Below are positions 41,794 through 59,568 of a stretch of 64,000 nucleotides of DNA, one piece after another. The stretch comes from Bdellovibrio bacteriovorus. GTDB lineage: Bacteria; Bdellovibrionota; Bdellovibrionia; Bdellovibrionales; Bdellovibrionaceae. Position 1 is the first letter of the stretch; every line of letters starts with the position of its first letter. Under the pieces are notes generated by a model. That model did not search any database. It was not told where the DNA came from and saw only the letters and a list, made by a program, of their open reading frames with translations. The position numbers were made by a program, and so were the translations under genes. The stretch lies in the NCBI RefSeq assembly GCF_001592735.1, contig NZ_LUKE01000003.1, forward strand, positions 434,001-498,000, given 5' to 3'.

Positions 41794-44700
41794 TTACAGA
41801 TTACGACGGTACTGTCCGCCCACTTCATAAAGGGCTTCCGTCATTTGATACAGACTGCAATGACGAGCGGCCACCATCAGAGCCGCAAAGATATTGCCAC
41901 CGCTCAGAACCGTGTCCTTAAGTGACTGCAAGGCCTTCGCGGCCTCTGTCTTATGCTCCTCTTGGAACTTGTGCACGTTATTGAGCTGCGCATTTTTTTC
42001 GTCATAAGACGCACGCGCCAGTTCAATTTTCGGTGGCACATAGTCTTGCGCCAAAGTTTTCGGATTAATAAATGTATTGACCCCAATAATCGGCAAGGTG
42101 CCATTGTGTTTAAGGTGTTCATAATACATCGACTCTTCTTGGATCTTCGAGCGTTGATATTGAGTTTCCATCGCCCCTAAAACCCCGCCGCGCTCGTTGA
42201 TCTTTTTAAATTCCGCCAAAACGGCTTCTTCGACCAGGTCTGTCAGCTCATCAATAAAATAAGCTCCTTGAGTTGGGTTTTCGTTTTTTGACATCCCGAA
42301 CTCACGGTTGATAATCATTTGAATCGCCATCGCACGACGCACGGATTCTTCGGTCGGTGTGGTGATCGCTTCGTCATAAGCATTGGTGTGCAGGCTATTA
42401 CAATTGTCATAGATCGCAATCAGGGCCTGCAAGGTCGTGCGGATGTCATTAAAGTCAATTTCTTGCGCATGTAAAGAACGACCTGATGTTTGAATGTGGT
42501 ATTTCAATTTTTGCGAACGATCATTGCCCTTATAAAGATCCCGCATAGCCACCGCCCAAATACGCCGAGCCACGCGGCCCAAGACCGCATATTCAGGATC
42601 TAGACCATTACTAAAAAAGAAACTTAAATTCGGCGCAAAGTCGTCGATTTTAAGTCCCCGCGATAAGTAGTACTCCACAAACGTAAAACCATTTGAAAGA
42701 GTAAATGCCAATTGCGAAATCGGATTCGCGCCCGCTTCGGCGATATGATAACCCGAGATACTAACGGAATAGAAGTTTCTCACTTTGCTATTCACAAAGT
42801 ATTCTTGAATATCGCCCATCATCTTAAGGGCAAAATTGATAGAGAAAATGCAAGTATTCTGTCCTTGATCTTCTTTTAAGATGTCCGCTTGAACCGTGCC
42901 ACGCACTTGTTGCAAAGTCCATTCGGCAAGCTTACTCCATTCGTCTTGAGTCAACTTACGACCCAACTCTTTTTCTTTCTTTTCAACCTGCTGATCAATC
43001 GCGGTGTTAAAATAAAAAGCCAAGATCATCGGTGCGGGACCGTTGATTGTCATACTGACCGAGGTATTTGGGTTGATAAGATCAAAGCCCGCATACAGCT
43101 TTTTCATATCATTCAACGTACAAATGCTGACACCTGACTCCCCGACTTTACCAAAGATATCCGGACGCTTATCAGGATCTTGTCCATACAAGGTGACCGA
43201 ATCAAAAGCCGTCGACAGGCGATGAGCCGTTTCACCTTCTGTCAGATAGTGAAAGCGACGATTTGTTCTTTCAGGTGTGCCTTCACCGGCAAACATACGT
43301 TTGGGATCTTCATCGGCACGCTTTAATGGGAAAACGCCTGCGGTGAATGGAAACTCTCCCGGAACGTTTTCAAGTTTTATGTAACGGAAGCGATCGCCCC
43401 AATCTTTCATCTTCGGAACGACGACTTTACGGATTTTTGTGCCCGATAAGGATTCCCGCACAAGCTCTTGGCGAATTTCTTTATCACGGACTTTAAAGAC
43501 CAGCTGATCACCAGAGTAGGTTTCAATCAACTTTTCAAAGTTTTTAAGCTGATCTAATTCTTCACCCGTAAATTCGGCGCTTAAATCTGATTCGACTTTT
43601 TTTACTGCCTCAGGCGAGGCCCCCACTAAAGGAGCTACTTTTTTAAGGCTGCCCAAGGTTGATGCTTTTTCGGCCAAATCTTCGGTGCGTTTTTTATATT
43701 TATGTACGGTGGAAACAATTTCCGCTAAATAGTTCTGACGATCTGCCGGGATGATCGCGTGCTCTTCCGCAGATAAGATATTGGCCTTGAACTTAGCGTC
43801 CACATTCCATTTGCCAGCTTGTTTGTTTTCTAAGGTGTCTGCCAAGGCAAAGAAAAGTTTATTCACGCCGCCATCATTAAACTGAGACGCTTGAGTTAAA
43901 AACACAGGCACGGTGATTTTATCATCAAAGATTTTGCGTGAACGTTTATATTGTTTCGTTACATCCCGAAGCGCATCCAAAGCCCCTCGACGATCGGCTT
44001 TATTCACGGCCACAAGGTCGGCAAAGTCGATCATGTCGATTTTTTCTAACTGCGATTGCGCGCCAAAATCAGAGGTCATCACGTACATGGAAAAATCACT
44101 GACTTCAGTGATCGCCATATTCCCCTGACCAATTCCGGAGGTCTCTGCAATCACAAAATCAAAGTCCAATTGCCGCACGAATTTTAAAATCTCTGGCAAC
44201 GAGGACGCAATCTCTCGTCCCGAACCACGTGAAGCCACCGAGCGCATATACACGTGATTTCGCGAAAGGGAGTTCATACGGATACGGTCCCCTAAAAGCG
44301 ATCCCCCCGTTTTGCGTTTAGAAGGATCGACACAGACCACGGCGATTTTTTTGTTAGGATAAGCATTTAAAAAACGCTGAACCAATTCATCAATCAAAGA
44401 GGACTTTCCTGCCCCGCCCGTCCCCGTGATGCCTAATACCAACGGAGCCGTTTTCGCTTTAAAGCCCGCAAGGCCAAAACCTTCTAAAGAAAAATCTTTG
44501 TGATTGTTTTCAATAGCGGTTAACGCCACCCCCAATTCCACCGAAGGAATGCTGTCACCCGGGAAGATGTTCTTTTTAGTTTTGAATTCTTTTTGTTTTT
44601 CTAAAATATCAAAGTCGCAGCCGCGCACGATCATTTCGATCATGCCTTCTAGCCCCAACTTACGCCCGTCATCTGGGTGAAAGATTTGGGCGATACCATA

Positions 44701-45033
44701 GGCTTCAAGTTCACGCTTTTCATCGTGAACAATCACGCCTCCGCCACCACCGTAAATTTTTACGTAACCTGCACCGGCTTCATCCAGTAAGTCCTTCATG
44801 TATTTGAAGTACTCCATATGTCCGCCCTGATAAGAGCTGATACAAACACCTTGGGCACCTTCTTGAAGAACCGCTTTCACCACGTCGCTCACAGACCGAT
44901 TGTGACCTAAGTGAATGACCTCCGCCCCCATATCTTGCAAGATTCTACGCATGATATTGATGCTGGCGTCGTGTCCATCAAAAAGAGCCGCGGCAGTGAC
45001 GATACGAACTGGATTTTTTAAAGTGTAGGCCAT
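41794..45033 (-). CDS. icmF: Fused isobutyryl-CoA mutase IcmF
   Basis: A 1079-residue adenosylcobalamin enzyme interconverting isobutyryl-CoA and n-butyryl-CoA; some family members also act on isovaleryl/pivalyl-CoA. Residues 9-140 are the B12 domain with DGHDAS (19-24, the His that ligates cobalt), and [11 protein letters not shown]. Residues about 198-415 are the MeaB-like G-protein chaperone with P-loop GTGGAGKSS (204-212) and VNKAD. Residues about 530-1060 are the mutase barrel ([20 protein letters not shown]). All three parts are intact. It is the third gene of an operon with hbd and a crotonase. Confidence 0.95.
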
Positions 45034-45039
45034 GAAAAA

Positions 45040-45840
45040 TTAAATCCCTTTGAATTGCGCTTTACGTTTTTCAATGAATGCCGAAGTGCCTTCTTTGACA
45101 TCCTCGGAGTTAAAGAGTTCGGCAAAAATACCGGCCTCATTTTTTTGAGCGGCTTCCACATCCATATCCCAAGCTTGGTTGATGGATTTTTTCGAAGCGC
45201 CAACGGCAATTGGAGCTTTCGCTAAGATTGTCTCGACGGTTTTCAGAACCGCCGGCATAAGTTCTGCTGCTGGGAGCACCTTGTTGACCAAGCCCATGGT
45301 GTGCGCCTCTTGAGCCGTGATCATATTGCCGGTGTAAGTTAATTCACGAGCACGACGTTGGCCCACGGCCCGCGCCAAACGCACGGTTCCGCCAAAGCCC
45401 GGGATCAAACCAAGACTGACTTCGGGTAAACCAAATTTCGCATTTTCAGCGGCATAAATAAAATCACACCCCAGGGCCAACTCACATCCACCACCTAAAG
45501 CAAAGCCGTTCACGGCCGCGATCACGGGGATTTTAAGCAATGTCAGCTCATGAAAGATACTTTGCCCCCGTTGCGCAAATGAATGAGCTTTGTCTTCATC
45601 AAGCGCGTTGATTTCCTTGATGTCTGCACCCGCCACAAAAGCTTTTTCACCGGCACCGGTGATGATAAGCGCACGCGCTTCATCAAAAGGAAGCTCCCCC
45701 ATTTGACGAAGGGCTTCGCCCATTTCTTCTAGTACGGTGGAATTTAAAGCATTCAAAGCCTCAGGGCGGTTGATGGTCAACACCCACACGCCTTGCGATT
45801 TATTTTCTAAAAGAATCGTTTTGTATGAAGATACAATCAT
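45040..45840 (-). CDS. Enoyl-CoA hydratase (crotonase family)
   Basis: A 266-residue hydratase, adding water to crotonyl-CoA-type enoyl-CoAs. It has the oxyanion-hole motifs AFVAGADIKEI and GFALGGGCELALGCDF and the catalytic Glu regions in FGLPEVSLGLIPGFGGT (one Glu near 119, a second near 139 by family position). Length is typical (about 260). It lies 8 nt after hbd and 6 nt before icmF. With both neighbours it covers the butyryl/crotonyl to acetoacetyl-CoA arm. Confidence 0.93.
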   Translation of the reverse strand: MIVSSYKTILLENKSQGVWVLTINRPEALNALNSTVLEEMGEALRQMGELPFDEARALIITGAGEKAFVAGADIKEINALDEDKAHSFAQRGQSIFHELTLLKIPVIAAVNGFALGGGCELALGCDFIYAAENAKFGLPEVSLGLIPGFGGTVRLARAVGQRRARELTYTGNMITAQEAHTMGLVNKVLPAAELMPAVLKTVETILAKAPIAVGASKKSINQAWDMDVEAAQKNEAGIFAELFNSEDVKEGTSAFIEKRKAQFKGI

Positions 45841-45848
45841 CTTAGTTC

Positions 45849-46706
45849 CTATTTTGCGTAGTTATAAAATCCACGACCCGATTTACGTCCCAACCATCCG
45901 GCCTCAACGTATTTCATAAGCAATGGGCATGGGCGGTACTTAGAATCACCCAAGCCATCATGAAGTACGTTCATGATCGCAAGACACGTGTCCAAACCAA
46001 TAAAATCCGCCAACGTCAAAGGACCCATGGGTTGGTTGGTCCCTAACTTCATCGCATTGTCGATAGCTTCCACATTCGCGATACCCTCGTGAAGAGTGTA
46101 AACGGCTTCATTGATCATCGGCATAAGAATACGATTCACGATAAAGCCTGGCATGTCTTTTACGGACTCAACAAAAACTTTATCCATTTTTTCGGCCAAG
46201 GCTTTAACCGCCGCGAAAGTTTCATCGGAGGTCTGCAAGCCACGAATGCCTTCCACAAGTTTCATCAAAGGAACAGGATTCATAAAGTGCATTCCCGCCA
46301 CTTGCGTCGGACGCTTGGTCACGCCCGCGATTTTCGTGATCGAGATGGACGATGTATTAGAAACCAAAAGAGCTTCTGGTTTTACGGCCGCATCCAGGTC
46401 TTTAAAAATTTTAAGTTTCAAATCAATGTTTTCGGTCGCCGCTTCAATGACGATATCACAATCTTTCAGCGCGGCGGTTTCTTGAGCGGTTTTAATACGA
46501 CCCAAAAGAGCGGCTTTATCCGCTTCAGTCATGGTGCCTTTTTTGATCAGGCGATCACAGCTGCCCGTGATAGTGGCCATGCCTTTTTCTAAGGCTGAAC
46601 CATTCACGTCCAACATGATCACGTTATAGCCAAACTGAGCCGCCACTTGAGCAATCCCATTCCCCATTTGACCCGCGCCTACAACACCAATACTTTGAAT
46701 TTTCAT
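45849..46706 (-). CDS. hbd: 3-hydroxybutyryl-CoA dehydrogenase
   Basis: A 285-residue NAD(H)-dependent dehydrogenase of short-chain 3-hydroxyacyl-CoA. It shows the Rossmann motif GVVGAGQMGNGIAQVAAQFG, VIEAATENIDLK, the catalytic His segment GMHFMNPVPLMKLVE (His near 139) and DMPGFIVNRILMPMINEAV. I use ATG 46706 (MKIQSI) because GGAG is eight bases upstream; a GTG three codons earlier is possible. It is the first gene of the hbd-crotonase-icmF operon, with a candidate promoter 44 bp upstream. Confidence 0.94.
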   Translation of the reverse strand: MKIQSIGVVGAGQMGNGIAQVAAQFGYNVIMLDVNGSALEKGMATITGSCDRLIKKGTMTEADKAALLGRIKTAQETAALKDCDIVIEAATENIDLKLKIFKDLDAAVKPEALLVSNTSSISITKIAGVTKRPTQVAGMHFMNPVPLMKLVEGIRGLQTSDETFAAVKALAEKMDKVFVESVKDMPGFIVNRILMPMINEAVYTLHEGIANVEAIDNAMKLGTNQPMGPLTLADFIGLDTCLAIMNVLHDGLGDSKYRPCPLLMKYVEAGWLGRKSGRGFYNYAK

Positions 46707-46749
46707 TACTACCACTCCGCGTTAATTTAACTTGTATTAAGCCCCATAA

Positions 46750-50477: not shown

Positions 50478-51206
50478 TTAAAGAAAATACGGCTCCATCA
50501 AGCGACGAACGGCTTCTTGAAACTTGGGACGATCGGCCGTCGTAAACGACTCACTATCCACGGCCGGTAAGACATGCAAGGTAATCGTGCTTGTCCAACG
50601 TCCCCAATTCGGAACAAAGTGCCCTTTTGGCATGACATCCGCCGCCCCTTTAACCACCACCGGAACGAGGGGCGCATGCGCATTGATCGCAAAAACAAAA
50701 GGTCCCGCTTTAAATGGCGCCAGAACTTTGTCGTTATCTTGTCTTGTGCCTTCAGGTGATAAAGCAAAACGTTCCCCGGCTTTGATGCGCGTTTCTGCTT
50801 CTTTGTACACGCGGAAAACTTCTTCGCGCTTTTCACGGGCAATCGGCAAAATGCCCGCCCGGCGCATCGCCCACCCAAACACGGGAATTTTAAAAAGTTC
50901 AATTTTTGCCCCAAAACGGAAACTTCCTAAGTACGCGGCCATCGCAAAAATATCAAAGAAGCTTGAGTGGTTAAAAACATAGATAAAACCACCTTTAGGG
51001 CGATTCTCAAGTCCCACGACTTGAACCTTCACCCCAAACATCCAACAAATCACGCGGGTCCAGTAATAGACAATCTGATCCTCTAAAGGACGGTTGTTTA
51101 AAAGCAACGTCGCGATAATCATCAACAGCGAACAAAACGCCGTGTGAATAGGCAGCAAGATGGTAGCAAGAATAGATCGCGGATAAGAAAGTAATTTAAG
51201 AATCAT
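50478..51206 (-). CDS. plsC: 1-acyl-sn-glycerol-3-phosphate acyltransferase (PlsC)
   Basis: A 242-residue membrane acyltransferase that makes phosphatidic acid. It has an N-terminal hydrophobic segment, the catalytic HX4D motif in FNHSSFFDIF (His near 75), the substrate-binding FSPEGTR-type motif (LSPEGTRQDN near 148) and a VPVVVKG strand. Length matches the family (about 240). It is 9 nt downstream of the RelA/SpoT-like gene on the same strand, so the two are probably co-transcribed. Confidence 0.93.
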   Translation of the reverse strand: MILKLLSYPRSILATILLPIHTAFCSLLMIIATLLLNNRPLEDQIVYYWTRVICWMFGVKVQVVGLENRPKGGFIYVFNHSSFFDIFAMAAYLGSFRFGAKIELFKIPVFGWAMRRAGILPIAREKREEVFRVYKEAETRIKAGERFALSPEGTRQDNDKVLAPFKAGPFVFAINAHAPLVPVVVKGAADVMPKGHFVPNWGRWTSTITLHVLPAVDSESFTTADRPKFQEAVRRLMEPYFL

Positions 51207-51215
51207 GCTTTAACT

Positions 51216-52307
51216 CTAAACCTCGGGGAACAAACGCTTGCGAGCCGCCGTCCGTTGGCGCTCTTTATATGCTTGATGTTCTGATGGACCGGAAAGAATT
51301 TTCTGATGGGCCGAATGATCCATGATCTGCACTTCAAAAGGATAAAAGAAACTGAACTCTTCTTTCCCACCAAAAGGCTTAACATGAATCAGCTTGCGGC
51401 TGATAAATTTAATAAAACGATAATCTTCGCCAGAAAAGAAATTCTCTTTACGCAAGAACTTTACGTTATCCCCTTGTTCCGCCAACTTTTGATCAAAGGC
51501 CGCTTGAATGTTTTTCTCATCCAAAGTGTCTAAGCGATGCGCTAAATCATCACAAACCTGCATGAAAAGCTCCACCGGATAAAGATTGTTTGAGCTTTGA
51601 TCCGGCATAATATGCGGGAAACTAATAACGTTCTGGCGAATTAAAAACCGCACCACTTGAAAAGTATCAAAAAGATTTCGCGTCACAAAACGCACACCTA
51701 GCTTATCAAAAATCTTCATTGCCAAGGCATCGGGCTTTGCTAAAAGTTTGATCACGGTGCTGGAAGAAGTCTTAAAAGGCTTTACTTCAAAGCCTAGAAG
51801 TTCAATAGACTCTTTACTTTCTTCATTTTGCAAAAACGTTCTATGAGTATTGCCATCATGACGAATGCAATCTTGAAATGGAGTGAGGATCTGGGATTGG
51901 ATTTCTTCAGAAAAAGAACTGAACAGGTCATTCTCTGCATGAACAAAAACGTGCATGCAACGGATGATCGCACACGCCCATTTTTGCATTTCTTGCTCCT
52001 CAGGATTGTGTGAGCTAGCAAAAAGCAAAAGCTGACGAATATCCCCTAAATGGCGACGATCACGGAACATCTCGGGGATTTCTGAATCCACAAAACCCAG
52101 TTTTTCGACCATCAACACAAGAGCGCGGCGATGATAATACCAAAGTTTTTCTAAATCGGATTCGCGAGTGATATCAAAACCATAATTCAAAATGAAAGAA
52201 CTCGCGGCCTCGAGCGTAAGAATATTGAGCTTAGGGATCTCAATCGCGGAATGTCCACCGACAACGGAATTTAAAATGGAAGAGTCGAAAATGAACCTTT
52301 GAGGCAT
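51216..52307 (-). CDS. Divergent RelA/SpoT-synthetase-like protein
   Basis: A 363-residue soluble protein without a standard annotation that I can give. The middle and end follow the order of (p)ppGpp synthetase domains: TVIKLLAKPDALAMKIFDKLGVRFV (184-208, compare the Dx(1-2)GxR strand), a later EDYRFIKFISRKLIHVK (294-310, compare the DYI...K...H segment), and FEVQIMDHSAHQKI plus SEHQAYKERQ (324-351, compare E-x-QIRT...M...AE...H...YK). The Glu and Gln of ExQ and the H..YK end are kept. The N-terminal 160 residues are helical and unassigned. Its ribosome binding site lies in a hairpin, and plsC follows. The fold is inferred by eye. Confidence 0.6.
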   Translation of the reverse strand: MPQRFIFDSSILNSVVGGHSAIEIPKLNILTLEAASSFILNYGFDITRESDLEKLWYYHRRALVLMVEKLGFVDSEIPEMFRDRRHLGDIRQLLLFASSHNPEEQEMQKWACAIIRCMHVFVHAENDLFSSFSEEIQSQILTPFQDCIRHDGNTHRTFLQNEESKESIELLGFEVKPFKTSSSTVIKLLAKPDALAMKIFDKLGVRFVTRNLFDTFQVVRFLIRQNVISFPHIMPDQSSNNLYPVELFMQVCDDLAHRLDTLDEKNIQAAFDQKLAEQGDNVKFLRKENFFSGEDYRFIKFISRKLIHVKPFGGKEEFSFFYPFEVQIMDHSAHQKILSGPSEHQAYKERQRTAARKRLFPEV

Positions 52308-52355: not shown

Positions 52356-53009
52356 TTAGTGGATCATAGCGCATTGATAGATTCTAAAGTCACCTAACTG
52401 GCCGGATTGAGGGCTGCCCTTCAACGCCTTGTAGTTGTTGAAGCTGACTTTACCATTCACCATAGAACCATCATAGGTCCCCGTCAAAGTGATGCTGCCG
52501 AATTCGTCTTCAAAAACCACATTGATTTGACGCGTGTTGCGATTAATCGTGCCTGATTTAGCTTGGCTAAACGCCACCTCATAAGGTGGGACCACTTGGC
52601 CATTATAAGTTGTTTTTGCGTAAGAATCGAAAATCTTAATCGAAATACTCGCTTGAGCAGCAATCAACTGATTATTGCTATCAAACGGAAACGAGGCGGT
52701 GAAATCAATCCCGGTGGCATCATTGATATTACCACTGATCGTTCCTAAAGCCTCTGGGTCCAATGTGGCAGAAACAAACGCCTTCACCTGTTCTTCAAAA
52801 CGCGATCCATAAGATTGGCTATCAAAGATTTTCCCAACAGCTTGGGCTTGAGCCGCGTTCCCGCACGTGTTTTGAGTGACAATCCCACTGCCGCCGCGAG
52901 TGACCACCCGGCCCGAGGCTGAGTCATCTTTCTTTGCACAGGCCGAAAGAGTGAGTGCCGCTAGCACCAACACGCCCATTACTGATTTTGATAAGAAAGA
53001 TGTTTTCAT
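52356..53009 (-). CDS. Lipoprotein of unknown function
   Basis: A 217-residue lipoprotein; MKTSFLSKSVMGVLVLAALT leads into the lipobox LSAC, lipid-Cys near 24. The start at 53009 is set by AGGAGG six bases upstream; a frame start at 53072 lacks one. The mature protein is beta-rich (GKIFDSQSYGSRFEEQVKAF, then INVVFEDEFGSITLTGTYDGS) and has two further Cys, one near each end. No family recognised. Confidence 0.78.
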   Translation of the reverse strand: MKTSFLSKSVMGVLVLAALTLSACAKKDDSASGRVVTRGGSGIVTQNTCGNAAQAQAVGKIFDSQSYGSRFEEQVKAFVSATLDPEALGTISGNINDATGIDFTASFPFDSNNQLIAAQASISIKIFDSYAKTTYNGQVVPPYEVAFSQAKSGTINRNTRQINVVFEDEFGSITLTGTYDGSMVNGKVSFNNYKALKGSPQSGQLGDFRIYQCAMIH

Positions 53010-53169
53010 AAAAAGCCTCCTGCCAAGAGATAAGGCAAGAGGTGGACCACACGAATCTTTCCACAGTCGCATTAAAGTGGATTTGGCATCTCAATGCGAG
53101 ACACTTAAAAACAAAGTGCCCCTTTCGGAGCACAGCTGTTTAGATTTTAGCCAGAATTATGATAGCTGA

Positions 53170-55975: not shown

Positions 55976-58129
55976 TTATGAATAGAATTTTCGATTCGAT
56001 TTCGCCATGTTCGTTAACGGCGTGCTCGGTTTCAAGCGAGGGGCCTTACGGCTAGAAGCATAAAGGGCTAACTGATCAGCCACATATTGAGTGCCAATGG
56101 TGTCGGTGTACTTCAATAAACCACCACGGAACGGCGGGAAGCCCGTTCCCATGATCATCGCTAGATCGACTTCATGAGGAGTTTCCACGATGCGATCTTC
56201 AATCAACGCCAAAGAACATTCATTCACCATGGCAAAAACGCCACGCTCAATGCACTCTTTAGAATCGTAAGGATTCGTCGGAGTTCCCAAACCTAAAACG
56301 CCATAAATAGATTGATCCACGTCACCACGTTTGCCGTCTTCCGAGTACTGATAGAATCCTTTACCATTCTTACGACCCAAGCGACCGGACTCGCCCAGTT
56401 TGTCCATGAGCGGCGCCATCTCGATACGATCACCGAAGGCTTTTTTGAAGATCTTTAAAACCTTGATACAAACATCAAGGCCGACTTCGTCCATCAACTC
56501 AAACGGCCCCATCGGCATGCCGAATTCTTTGACGTAAGCTTTATCCACGAATTCAATGCTCATTCCTTCTTGCATTAAGAAAGCCGCTTCGGCCATGTAA
56601 GGCAAAAGCAAACGATTCACTAAGAAACCCGGACCATCTTTAACGACGACCGGCATTTTGCCCATTTTTTTCGTTAATTCAAAAATAGTCGCGATGGTTT
56701 CATCCGAGGTTTTTTCACCACGAATCACCTCCACCAACGGCATTTTATTTACGGGATTAAAGAAATGCATTCCCGCGAAAAATTCCGGACGAGGATGACC
56801 TTTGGACATCTCCGTGACCGACAATGAACTGGTATTCGTCGCAATGATCGCATCAGGGCGCATTTGACCGGCGCACTCACCGATCACTTTTTGCTTGATA
56901 CCCATATCTTCAACGATGGCTTCAACCACCACGTCCAAATTTTTAAAACCCGCGTAGTCCGTACCTACAGAAACCAAATCCATTTTTTGTTGGAATTGAT
57001 ATTTATCGATAGATTTACGTTTTAATAATTTCATCCACAAATCACTGGCGTGCTTAAGACCTTTACCCAAGGCGTCTGAGTTTAAGTCTTTCATGCGCAC
57101 GTGAATACCTTTGTCTGCGGCCACATAGGCGATACCACCACCCATGGTTCCTGCACCCAAAATACCCATCGCTTTGACTTCTTTGGGTTTGACGTTCACG
57201 CCTGACACGCCGGTTTGTTTTTTTACCATTTCAGTCAAATAGAAAACGTGGATCAGGTTTTTAGATGTGTCGGTGATACCAAGCTCACAGAAGCCTTCAC
57301 GCTCAATGCGCATACCGGCTTCACGATCACTGCTGCCATACGTTCTTTGAATCACTTCCAAAGCTTTCAGTGGCGCGGGGTAATGACCTTTGGTGGCCTT
57401 CATGACACCTTCACGCGCTTTCTTGAAAACAATGCCGCGACCCAAGGCACTTTCAAGAACCTTGTTCATGACACCTTGAGGTTGGAACTGCTTGCGGCGC
57501 TTTTGTCCGCCTTTAGCGATGATTTCTTTGGCCCATTTTGTCGCTTGATCCATCAACAAATTAGGATGAACCATCTTATCAACAAGCCCGATCTTAAGGG
57601 CTTTTTTCGCATTCACTGATTTTCCGGCTAAGATAATATCTAAGGCTGCTTGCAAACCAATCACGCGCGGCATGCGCTGAGTTCCGCCAAAACCAGGTAA
57701 GATGCCTAATTGAATTTCAGGCAACCCGATTTTTGTCGAAGAGTCTTCAGAAGCGATACGATAATCACAAGAAAGGATGAATTCACACCCTCCCCCCATG
57801 CAAGCGCCGTTCACGGCCGCTATCGTAGGCATAGGAAGATCTTCCACTTGATTCATGATGTCCTGACCACCTTTCACCGCAGCTTCAAACTGCTCTTTGG
57901 TGGTCATGCTTTTGATTTCTTCAATATCAGCGCCGGCAATAAATATCTTTGCCTTGTTAGATTTAAAGATCACCGCTTTGTAAGAAGAGCGTTTGAGCTC
58001 TCCTAAAACTTCCTGCAATCTCATCATCACCGGAGTTGAGAACTTATTAACTTTCTCTCCGACAAGGTCAAATTCAACAACGGCGATATCACCTTGAGGT
58101 ACAATCTTGATGCTTTCCTGGATGCTCAT
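55976..58129 (-). CDS. fadJ: Fatty-acid oxidation multifunctional enzyme (FadB/FadJ)
   Basis: A 717-residue bifunctional enzyme of beta-oxidation. Residues about 1-190 are the enoyl-CoA hydratase part (FIAGADIEEI, GGGCEFILSCDYRIA, GLPEIQLGILPGFGGTQRMP). Residues about 325-620 are the 3-hydroxyacyl-CoA dehydrogenase part (GAGTMGGGIAYVAADKG, VVEAIVEDM, AGMHFFNPVNKMPLVEV, DGPGFLVNRLLLPYMAEA). The C-terminal domain follows. Length matches FadJ (714) and FadB (729). It lies 6 nt after the thiolase gene in the same operon. FadB and FadJ cannot be told apart by eye. Confidence 0.94.
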   Translation of the reverse strand: MSIQESIKIVPQGDIAVVEFDLVGEKVNKFSTPVMMRLQEVLGELKRSSYKAVIFKSNKAKIFIAGADIEEIKSMTTKEQFEAAVKGGQDIMNQVEDLPMPTIAAVNGACMGGGCEFILSCDYRIASEDSSTKIGLPEIQLGILPGFGGTQRMPRVIGLQAALDIILAGKSVNAKKALKIGLVDKMVHPNLLMDQATKWAKEIIAKGGQKRRKQFQPQGVMNKVLESALGRGIVFKKAREGVMKATKGHYPAPLKALEVIQRTYGSSDREAGMRIEREGFCELGITDTSKNLIHVFYLTEMVKKQTGVSGVNVKPKEVKAMGILGAGTMGGGIAYVAADKGIHVRMKDLNSDALGKGLKHASDLWMKLLKRKSIDKYQFQQKMDLVSVGTDYAGFKNLDVVVEAIVEDMGIKQKVIGECAGQMRPDAIIATNTSSLSVTEMSKGHPRPEFFAGMHFFNPVNKMPLVEVIRGEKTSDETIATIFELTKKMGKMPVVVKDGPGFLVNRLLLPYMAEAAFLMQEGMSIEFVDKAYVKEFGMPMGPFELMDEVGLDVCIKVLKIFKKAFGDRIEMAPLMDKLGESGRLGRKNGKGFYQYSEDGKRGDVDQSIYGVLGLGTPTNPYDSKECIERGVFAMVNECSLALIEDRIVETPHEVDLAMIMGTGFPPFRGGLLKYTDTIGTQYVADQLALYASSRKAPRLKPSTPLTNMAKSNRKFYS

Positions 58130-58135
58130 TTTATC

Positions 58136-59479
58136 TTAACCCTCATTCTCTAAAATCATTGCTCCGCCTTGACCGCCACCGATACACAGTGTGGCCAAAC
58201 CGAATTGCGTATTTCTTCTTTTCATTTCTTTAGCCAATGTCAGTACGATGCGAGTGCCCGTTGCACCGACCGGATGGCCGAAAGCAATAGCGCCGCCGTT
58301 GACGTTTAAGATGTCATCACGGATTTCTCCGACCTTGGATGACAGACCTAATTTTTCTTGCGCAAATTGATCTGAATCCATCGCGCGTTGGCAAGCCATC
58401 ACTTGCGCGGCAAAAGCTTCATTGAGCTCCACTAAACCAATATCTTTCATTGAAAGACCGGCCCGTTTTAAGGCCAATGGCGTTGAGTAAGCCGGGCCCA
58501 ACCCCATGCGCTCGGGCTCCAACCCTGCAAAACCGTAAGAGCGAATTGTCGCCAAAGGCTTGTAGCCTTGCGCTTCGGCTTTTTCTCGAGACATTAAAAG
58601 CACCATCGCCGCCCCATCCGTGATCGGGCAAGAGTTCCCCGCCGTGATCGACCCGGTCGCTTTATCAAAAAAGGGTTTTAATTTACTTAAAGCTTCCATC
58701 GTTTGATTGTCGCGAGGACCGATGTCATCGGCAACGACTTCTTTGTACTCGGGGGCAAGATACACAGGCGTGATCTCTTGACGCAAAAGCCCTGCTTTTG
58801 TGGCCTGGGATGCTCTTTGGTGTGAACGCAAAGCGAACTGATCTTGCATCTCGCGAGTTAATCCCCACTCTTTTGCTAAGATCTCAGCGGTTTGTCCCAT
58901 GTTAATGCCGACGAAAGGATCTGTAAGCCCCAACATCACTGCAATCTGTGGGAAATATTCATCGCGCATATTTCCTTGGAGAAGCGCTTTGATTTGTTTC
59001 ATGTCGGCTTTAAAAAGCGCCCACAAAAGTGGAAGAGCTTGTTTAGGGCCTTTAGCCGCAAAAAGTTTTTCGTAAATCTCTTGGAATTTTTTGGGCGGAA
59101 GAGTGGGCATTTGCGACATGCTCTCCGTCCCCCCGGCTAAAACCACGTCCATCGTTCCCGATTTGATTTTTTCATAACCGTTAGAGATAGACTCGAGTGC
59201 GGAAGCACAGTTGCGATGAACCGTGTACGCCGATGTTTTCAAAGGGATGCCGGCATTCAAAGCCACAACCCGAGAGATATTGACGGCATCAGGAGGATTG
59301 CCCGTGTTACCGATGATGACTTCATCAACAGAATTCACATCTAGATTTGTTTGCGCGATCAATTGTTTTAAAGCCGTTTTTCCCAGATCGGCAGGATGAA
59401 CTTTTTTAATTTTTGTCCCTGCCTTTGCAAACGGGGTACGAACACCTTCCACCAGAACGACATCGCGTGGTGACTTCAT
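58136..59479 (-). CDS. fadI: Acetyl-CoA acyltransferase (3-ketoacyl-CoA thiolase)
   Basis: A 447-residue thiolase that releases acetyl-CoA in the last step of beta-oxidation. It has the nucleophile Cys in VHRNCASALESISNGY (near 98), NEAFAAQVMACQ, GGAIAFGHPVGATGTR with the catalytic His, and CIGGGQGGAMILE with the second Cys. Length fits FadI (436) better than FadA (387). I use ATG 59479 (MKSPRD) because AAGGAG lies 7 bases upstream; ATG codons further upstream lack one. It is the first gene of the operon. Confidence 0.93.
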   Translation of the reverse strand: MKSPRDVVLVEGVRTPFAKAGTKIKKVHPADLGKTALKQLIAQTNLDVNSVDEVIIGNTGNPPDAVNISRVVALNAGIPLKTSAYTVHRNCASALESISNGYEKIKSGTMDVVLAGGTESMSQMPTLPPKKFQEIYEKLFAAKGPKQALPLLWALFKADMKQIKALLQGNMRDEYFPQIAVMLGLTDPFVGINMGQTAEILAKEWGLTREMQDQFALRSHQRASQATKAGLLRQEITPVYLAPEYKEVVADDIGPRDNQTMEALSKLKPFFDKATGSITAGNSCPITDGAAMVLLMSREKAEAQGYKPLATIRSYGFAGLEPERMGLGPAYSTPLALKRAGLSMKDIGLVELNEAFAAQVMACQRAMDSDQFAQEKLGLSSKVGEIRDDILNVNGGAIAFGHPVGATGTRIVLTLAKEMKRRNTQFGLATLCIGGGQGGAMILENEG

Positions 59480-59540
59480 GAGCAGCTCCTTCATTTGTCT
59501 GCACTCCGTGACTCGCCGGAGTAACTTATAAGCCATTAAA

Positions 59541-59568
59541 ATCATATGTCTTTTCGGACAAACGTCAA
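59541..59568 (-). promoter_or_regulatory. Sigma-70 promoter of fadI-fadB with operator-like dyad
   Basis: On the minus strand TTGACG (59568-59563), 16 bp, TATGAT (59546-59541), about 60 bp upstream of the fadI ATG. The spacer contains TGTC-6-GACA (59547-59560), a dyad placed where a repressor would block RNA polymerase. Confidence 0.6.

Follow-up and report, generated by a model that had tools for sequence, protein, structure and literature searches.

Enzymes of the RelA/SpoT superfamily differ in the acceptor that they use, and among the toxSAS proteins FaRel2 and CapRel act on tRNA CCA ends while Tas1 acts on adenosine nucleotides. The nucleotide contacts are known from crystal structures of the stand-alone synthetase SaRelP, in which R78 and R112 stack on the adenine, K80, S84, K88 and R91 bind the phosphates, D107 and E174 hold the magnesium, H190 contacts the ATP ribose, and Y151 of the G-loop binds the guanosine nucleotide (PMC5794853); the scheme in FaRel2 is similar (PMC11782079). 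A 2011 survey recognized 30 RelA/SpoT subgroups using entry cut-offs of E 1e-2 and 1e-5 (PMC3153485). With regard to membrane lipids, the activity of PlsB in E. coli is reduced by ppGpp, and how this effect is transmitted has yet to be settled (PMC7439487).

The window analyzed here is a 64,000-nucleotide stretch of a Bdellovibrio bacteriovorus contig (NZ_LUKE01000003.1), and contains an open reading frame at 51216-52307 coding for a protein of 363 residues. The preliminary description of this DNA gave these coordinates exactly but no strand; the frame is on the minus strand, and the plus strand of the interval is full of stops. The predicted product belongs to NCBIfam TIGR04552/TIGR04562 by the curated cut-offs, scoring 400.7 bits against TIGR04552 (residues 5-360; cut-off 125 bits; E~1e-120) and 398.7 bits against TIGR04562 (residues 8-360; cut-off 140 bits). 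Neither record has a functional name and the NCBIfam record does not include the RelA/SpoT relationship; in the literature that we found, TIGR04552 appears only as a table entry of an experimental-evolution study. When compared by description in the freely readable literature, the subgroup table of the 2011 survey contains none with a matching architecture and phylum-wide distribution (PMC3153485), and the thresholds of that survey would leave out the window protein.

The window protein alone matches the Pfam RelA_SpoT profile PF04607 with 14.8 bits (E 0.035), under the gathering threshold of 27, and PDB sequence searches with single TIGR04552 members found nothing. To place the family we used 107 relatives of full or almost full length, nearly all of them members of Bdellovibrionota, giving an alignment of 108 sequences to which the counts below refer. 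PF04607 matches 70 of 84 relatives at E<=1 (best E 1.1e-8), and each of the other Pfam families matches seven or fewer of the same 84. Several loci score above the PF04607 cut-off of 27: L009 with 35.8 bits in one stretch covering profile positions 4-111, nearly its full length, L132 with 33.8 bits and L031 with 32.0 bits. Whole-genome scans with PF04607 also independently pick out the TIGR04552 gene in many genomes, and TIGR00691 (spoT_relA) matches 17 of 84 relatives (best 2.4e-8). Compared profile to profile, the family and the RelA/SpoT enzymes of its own phylum fall into a single colinear alignment, with E values, calculated for one pair, of 7e-5 to 4e-4. When these same-phylum enzymes were used to build a local HMM, it picked up 28 of the 108 family members at E<1, compared with 2 of 1080 shuffles and 0 of 1022 open reading frames from the neighbourhood; a variant with small synthetases added was noisier, with one shuffle at E 0.007, and was not relied on. 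Judged from sequence profiles, the evidence for RelA/SpoT ancestry is thus thin for the window protein alone but strong for the family, which appears to be a new and divergent branch of this known superfamily.

TIGR04552 is a core gene across the phylum, being present in 126 of 144 sampled Bdellovibrionota genomes and 82 of 97 genera, nearly always in one copy (as a genome search shows for the genome of the window), and the 14 control genomes have no copy. The topology of the gene tree agrees for the most part with the families, suggesting vertical inheritance, and searches of plasmids and of viral contigs for TIGR04552 returned no match. A full-length homologue is present in a 274-kb GenBank entry titled 'Microcystis phage MaAM05, complete genome' (MW495066.1, 115546-132610), where its neighbours are mtgA, glyS, gatD, secDF and acpS; we considered this entry as evidence of mobility and rejected it, as it looks like mislabelled bacterial chromosomal DNA. 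A Bdellovibrionales-type copy with plsC also lies on a contig (JABDFK010000015.1) assigned to Myxococcota by the tree tool, reflecting either a binning error or transfer. The genome of the window also codes for one ordinary long Rel (a 739-aa open frame), the sole alarmone enzyme that Pfam recognises there. An additional small RelA/SpoT synthetase (about 350 aa), separate from TIGR04552, is encoded in some genomes of the order, one of them from the genus of the window (loci L164, G048:C1:3624500-3627800, and L165, G053:C108).

The life cycle of Bdellovibrio-type predators alternates between an attack phase, in which the cells starve, and fast growth within the prey. During experimental evolution of Bdellovibrio sp. 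NC01 on Pseudomonas, a one-base deletion affecting the TIGR04552 gene (DOE51_RS08710) rose above 75% in one line (PMC9888234), suggesting that predation in that setting does not strictly require the gene; the deletion may have been selected or may have hitchhiked. Because the family is core across the phylum and a frameshift is tolerated in an evolved predatory population, a predator-specific story provides only a frame. Transcription of dksA in Bdellovibrio drops on exit from the attack phase (PMC2797640).

An AlphaFold2 model built from 19 sequences is of moderate confidence, with a mean pLDDT of 72 and a pTM of 0.69. The Foldseek comparison proposed in the preliminary description places RelA/SpoT synthetases (RelP, RelQ, Rel, RelA and relatives) at all of ranks 1-42 of the PDB, with a best E of 1.7e-3 and none below 1e-3. 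Ranks 1-26 in the VIA structural aligner are also all RelA/SpoT synthetases, the best match being B. subtilis Rel (Z 8.5, 135 residues, 3.3 Å). A Z near 8 is not decisive alone, and it is the uniform identity of the top matches that is reasonably persuasive that the protein has the RelA/SpoT synthetase fold, a prediction that we hold with moderate confidence. Residues 127-350 of the model align to BsRel, RelQ, RelP, RelA and CapRel and so occupy the synthetase core, the placement by which the preliminary description proposed to test its reading (for residues 184-351). The distant homology proposed in the preliminary description is thereby upheld by the sequence profiles, the profile-profile comparison and the predicted fold.

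From this alignment and the PF04607 matches in relatives we assign residues 127-363 (51219-51929, minus strand) to a RelA/SpoT synthetase-like domain. The preceding 126 residues (51930-52307, minus strand) form an all-helical N-terminal domain with no recognisable fold; its core is modelled with pLDDT above 80, and its best matches, with a Foldseek E of 2.0 and a VIA Z of 4.1, are noise. Within the 108 sequences H119 is invariant and H123 and D127 are nearly so, but a putative HxxxHxxxD metal site at these positions is not taken to define the family, since in the outlier MaAM05 only the first histidine is retained. HD, TGS and ACT domains were not detected in the window protein by Pfam and NCBIfam scans.

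The catalytic residues are kept throughout the family. The four strings quoted in the preliminary description occur in the order given, with IFDKLGVRFV at residues 199-208, EDYRFIKFISRKLIHV at 294-309, FEVQIMDHSAHQKI at 324-337 and SEHQAYKERQ at 342-351. Its reading of the D-x-x-G-x-R, ExQ and H..YK motifs stands, whereas its DYI..K..H stretch was off register: the tyrosine of 'EDYRFIKF' was rejected as part of a DYI motif since it matches the guanosine-loop tyrosine of 'NGYxSLH' in the profile alignment and in MaAM05. All of the following elements are on the minus strand. D201-x-x-G-x-R206 (51690-51707), assigned from conservation, would supply a magnesium ligand and an adenine-stacking arginine by the roles established for SaRelP (PMC5794853). 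The putative catalytic ExQ motif, E325-V-Q327 (51327-51335), and H344-x-x-Y347-K348 (51264-51278) are assigned from conservation and alignment with RelSeq, in which D264 and E323 correspond to D201 and E325, and the spacing of 19 residues from the catalytic glutamate to H344 is the same. No substitution occurs at D201, G204, R206, E325 or Q327 in the 108 members, and the residues H344, Y347 and K348 are shared by 101-107 of them (H344 by 107). The predicted ATP triphosphate-binding motif, K176-P-x-K179-xxx-S183-xxx-K187 (51747-51782), is assigned from conservation and alignment with RVKSFESIVNK of YwaC, with roles from SaRelP (PMC5794853); K179 and K187 are present in all 108 sequences, K176 in 107 and S183 in 101. 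The acceptor loop or G-loop extends from N289, which is invariant, to Y296 (51420-51443), as judged from conservation and profile alignment, and position 296 is tyrosine in 87 members and phenylalanine in 19 (106/108 together). Thus K179, S183, K187, D201, R206, Y296, E325 and H344 are the aligned equivalents of residues with defined roles in SaRelP. That these identities are kept although members fall to 26-33% identity places the quoted motifs beyond chance.

The acceptor side departs from the classical pattern. In the R-x-K-xxx-S-xxx-K motif the leading arginine, equivalent to the first adenine-stacking arginine R78 of SaRelP, is replaced by P/S/A177 next to the essentially invariant K176. 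The K-D-Y-I motif is replaced by P-S/D-R/Q-S-x-N, and the histidine of YxSLH is mostly lost, with glutamine or lysine at position 300. About 48 residues (241-288; 51444-51587, minus strand) are inserted before the G-loop as compared to RelA/SpoT profiles, and form two helices in the model. The register of the G-loop, in which Y296 is the tyrosine of the YxSLH context, comes from the profile alignment and is fixed by the MaAM05 outlier, which at 27-29% identity is full-length, keeps the active-site residues and has a classical QYRSLH at the G-loop. The replacement of the R78 equivalent and the loss of K-D-Y-I and, mostly, of the YxSLH histidine suggest that the acceptor pocket differs, and the lost arginine and K-D-Y-I together with the insertion and the helical N-domain make the acceptor uncertain.

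The start of plsC (50478-51206, minus strand; 242 aa; PF01553 E 2e-26), coding for a 1-acylglycerol-3-phosphate acyltransferase-like protein, is 9 bp downstream of the TIGR04552 gene on the same strand, and the two are probably co-transcribed. A gene for a putative lipoprotein (52356-53072, minus strand; lipobox LSAC; likely start near 53009) is 48 bp upstream on the same strand; within the order this gene recurs beside TIGR04552, directly upstream in 38 of 107 loci, is weakly conserved, and has no family match above noise in Pfam and NCBIfam scans. Fatty-acid and acyl-CoA degradation genes flank the locus on both sides (41794-46715 and 55976-59545), with a methylmalonyl-CoA mutase/MeaB fusion, enoyl-CoA hydratase and hydroxyacyl-CoA dehydrogenase on one flank and a FadJ-like protein and thiolase on the other.

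The partnership with an acyltransferase gene suggested in the preliminary description is real, and other clades have plsB and pgpA nearby. In the Bdellovibrionales clade the gene is accompanied by a plsC homologue, usually immediately downstream in the same orientation, and this homologue lies within the fetched flank at 14 of 14 family f1 loci, 18 of 18 genome_contigs loci, and part of f2, f3, f4 and f6. In f9 and f20 it is plsB, with GPAT_C and acyltransferase domains, that is located 1.5-3.9 kb downstream on the same strand, at all nine loci with enough flank. In f13, f14, f17 and f21-f24, pgpA is divergently upstream in most loci, and in a number of those scanned it is near recA or cinA, as a pgpA-cinA-recA cluster. 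These three types of loci are separate clades on the tree. None of 31 RelA/SpoT control loci with similar flanks has plsC, plsB or pgpA. The linkage fails in half of f2 and in f5, f7, f11, f12, f15 and f19, and in several families all three genes are missing over about 7 kb. The genome of the window has six PF01553 genes and one PgpA, and the chance of any given neighbour being a plsC-type or pgpA gene is estimated at about 0.2% (7 in about 3,700 genes), which makes three partners from one pathway suggestive. At a group of loci (L143:9609-12646, L145:9331-12467, L155:5412-8587 and similar loci in f13, f17, f19, f22 and f23) a gene pair is located downstream of TIGR04552; the first protein, whose gene often overlaps the TIGR04552 stop, is about 370-430 aa long, begins in a Rossmann-like manner and is not confidently matched by any Pfam family, and the second is about 650 aa with Fe-S ferredoxin domains where scanned.

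We consider it probable that the TIGR04552 protein is an active ATP:nucleotide 3'-pyrophosphokinase, presumably an alarmone synthetase and likely one tied to phospholipid synthesis. As a small, apparently hydrolase-less member of the RelA/SpoT superfamily it would bind ATP-Mg in the domain at 127-363 through K179, S183, K187, D201, R206 and H344, and E325 would assist transfer of the ATP beta,gamma-pyrophosphate onto the 3'-OH of an acceptor nucleotide, which the G-loop tyrosine or phenylalanine (Y296) and the family-specific insertion would keep in place. The likeliest product would be a (p)ppGpp-type alarmone or close analogue, and the helical N-domain of 126 residues probably regulates the activity. 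The enzyme would act alongside Rel, and the presence of that full-length RelA/SpoT enzyme in the same genome counts against our favored explanation. The plsC, plsB or pgpA neighbours in three clades suggest that the signal would most likely adjust glycerophospholipid synthesis to growth state. As the linkage was noticed after the fact, is missing in several families, and involves pgpA in a housekeeping cluster, we regard the tie to phospholipid synthesis itself as about evenly balanced.

The linkage could instead reflect genomic hitchhiking of an ordinary accessory alarmone synthetase unrelated to lipids, an explanation with an appreciable chance of being correct, if somewhat short of even. 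The families that lack all three genes over about 7 kb, the divergent transcription of pgpA as part of its cluster, and the post hoc nature of the observation all agree with it, but it must also account for the presence, beside the gene in separate clades, of three different enzymes of one pathway, two of which follow it on the same strand, when the genome has so few PF01553 and PgpA genes and the RelA/SpoT control loci have none of the three. The altered acceptor side raises the alternative that this is a RelA/SpoT-type pyrophosphokinase with an acceptor other than guanosine, such as tRNA CCA ends, adenosine nucleotides, or a cytidine or lipid-pathway nucleotide. The large loss of K-D-Y-I and of the YxSLH histidine and the inserted residues before the acceptor loop would fit, VIA also matches CapRel (Z 5.7) and Tas1 (Z 5.1), though lower than the top entries, and the tRNA-modifying FaRel2 likewise has a reduced positive patch at its acceptor site (PMC11782079). 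Against this, the gene behaves as core, vertically inherited and mostly single-copy, with neither an antitoxin-like partner nor, in the three members scanned, a defence-model match, and the G-loop tyrosine or phenylalanine is kept, with a classical YRSLH in MaAM05; we therefore see a non-guanosine acceptor as possible but on balance unlikely. Decidedly unlikely is a bolder proposal in which this phylum-wide pyrophosphokinase would serve glycerophospholipid synthesis specifically and, with an acceptor other than guanosine, would make a signal distinct from classical (p)ppGpp that couples growth phase to membrane synthesis in the predatory bacteria.

The preliminary description also allowed for a degenerate ligand sensor, and a catalytically dead protein of RelA/SpoT fold could bind a nucleotide such as (p)ppGpp and regulate neighbours such as PlsC. 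The change of the first adenine-stacking arginine to proline or serine at 177 and the degenerate acceptor motif would fit such a protein, but D201, E325, Q327, K179, K187 and R206 are identical in 108 members diverged to 26% identity, and with the ATP- and Mg-binding residues and catalytic glutamate essentially invariant we consider loss of activity very improbable. Membership of another nucleotidyltransferase fold, such as that of DNA polymerase X, has a negligible chance: Pol lambda, Pol mu and TdT do appear in the VIA matches at Z 4-5, but below 26 RelA/SpoT entries, and only RelA_SpoT profiles match the family consistently. An active pyrophosphokinase thus remains our preferred reading. 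It would give the Bdellovibrionota a second near-universal candidate synthetase, missed by profile searches at the usual cut-offs and hidden by database names, and the pairing of its gene with plsC provides a testable handle on a long-standing problem, the coordination of nucleotide alarmones with membrane lipid synthesis.

In comparison with known systems, the TIGR04552 protein resembles the toxSAS enzymes FaRel2, CapRel and Tas1 in its predicted synthetase fold and apparently altered acceptor side, but differs from them in being the product of a core gene without an antitoxin-like partner; PADLOC defence models gave no match for three TIGR04552 members, and the genes identified as recurring beside it have lipid or housekeeping functions. 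With the long Rel/RelA/SpoT enzymes it shares the order of the catalytic core and the 19-residue Glu-to-His spacing, and B. subtilis Rel is its best VIA match, but it has no detected HD, TGS or ACT domain and coexists with the long Rel of its own genome. The stand-alone synthetases, which are the top Foldseek matches, differ from it in that the TIGR04552 protein has the 126-aa helical N-domain and the insertion of about 48 aa before the G-loop, and lacks the R78 equivalent and K-D-Y-I. With about 9-16% identity over the aligned core, the two nonetheless have in common a synthetase domain standing alone, with HD, TGS and ACT domains not detected in the TIGR04552 protein, and the presence of KxxxSxxxK, DxxGxR, the G-loop tyrosine, ExQ and the ribose-contacting histidine.
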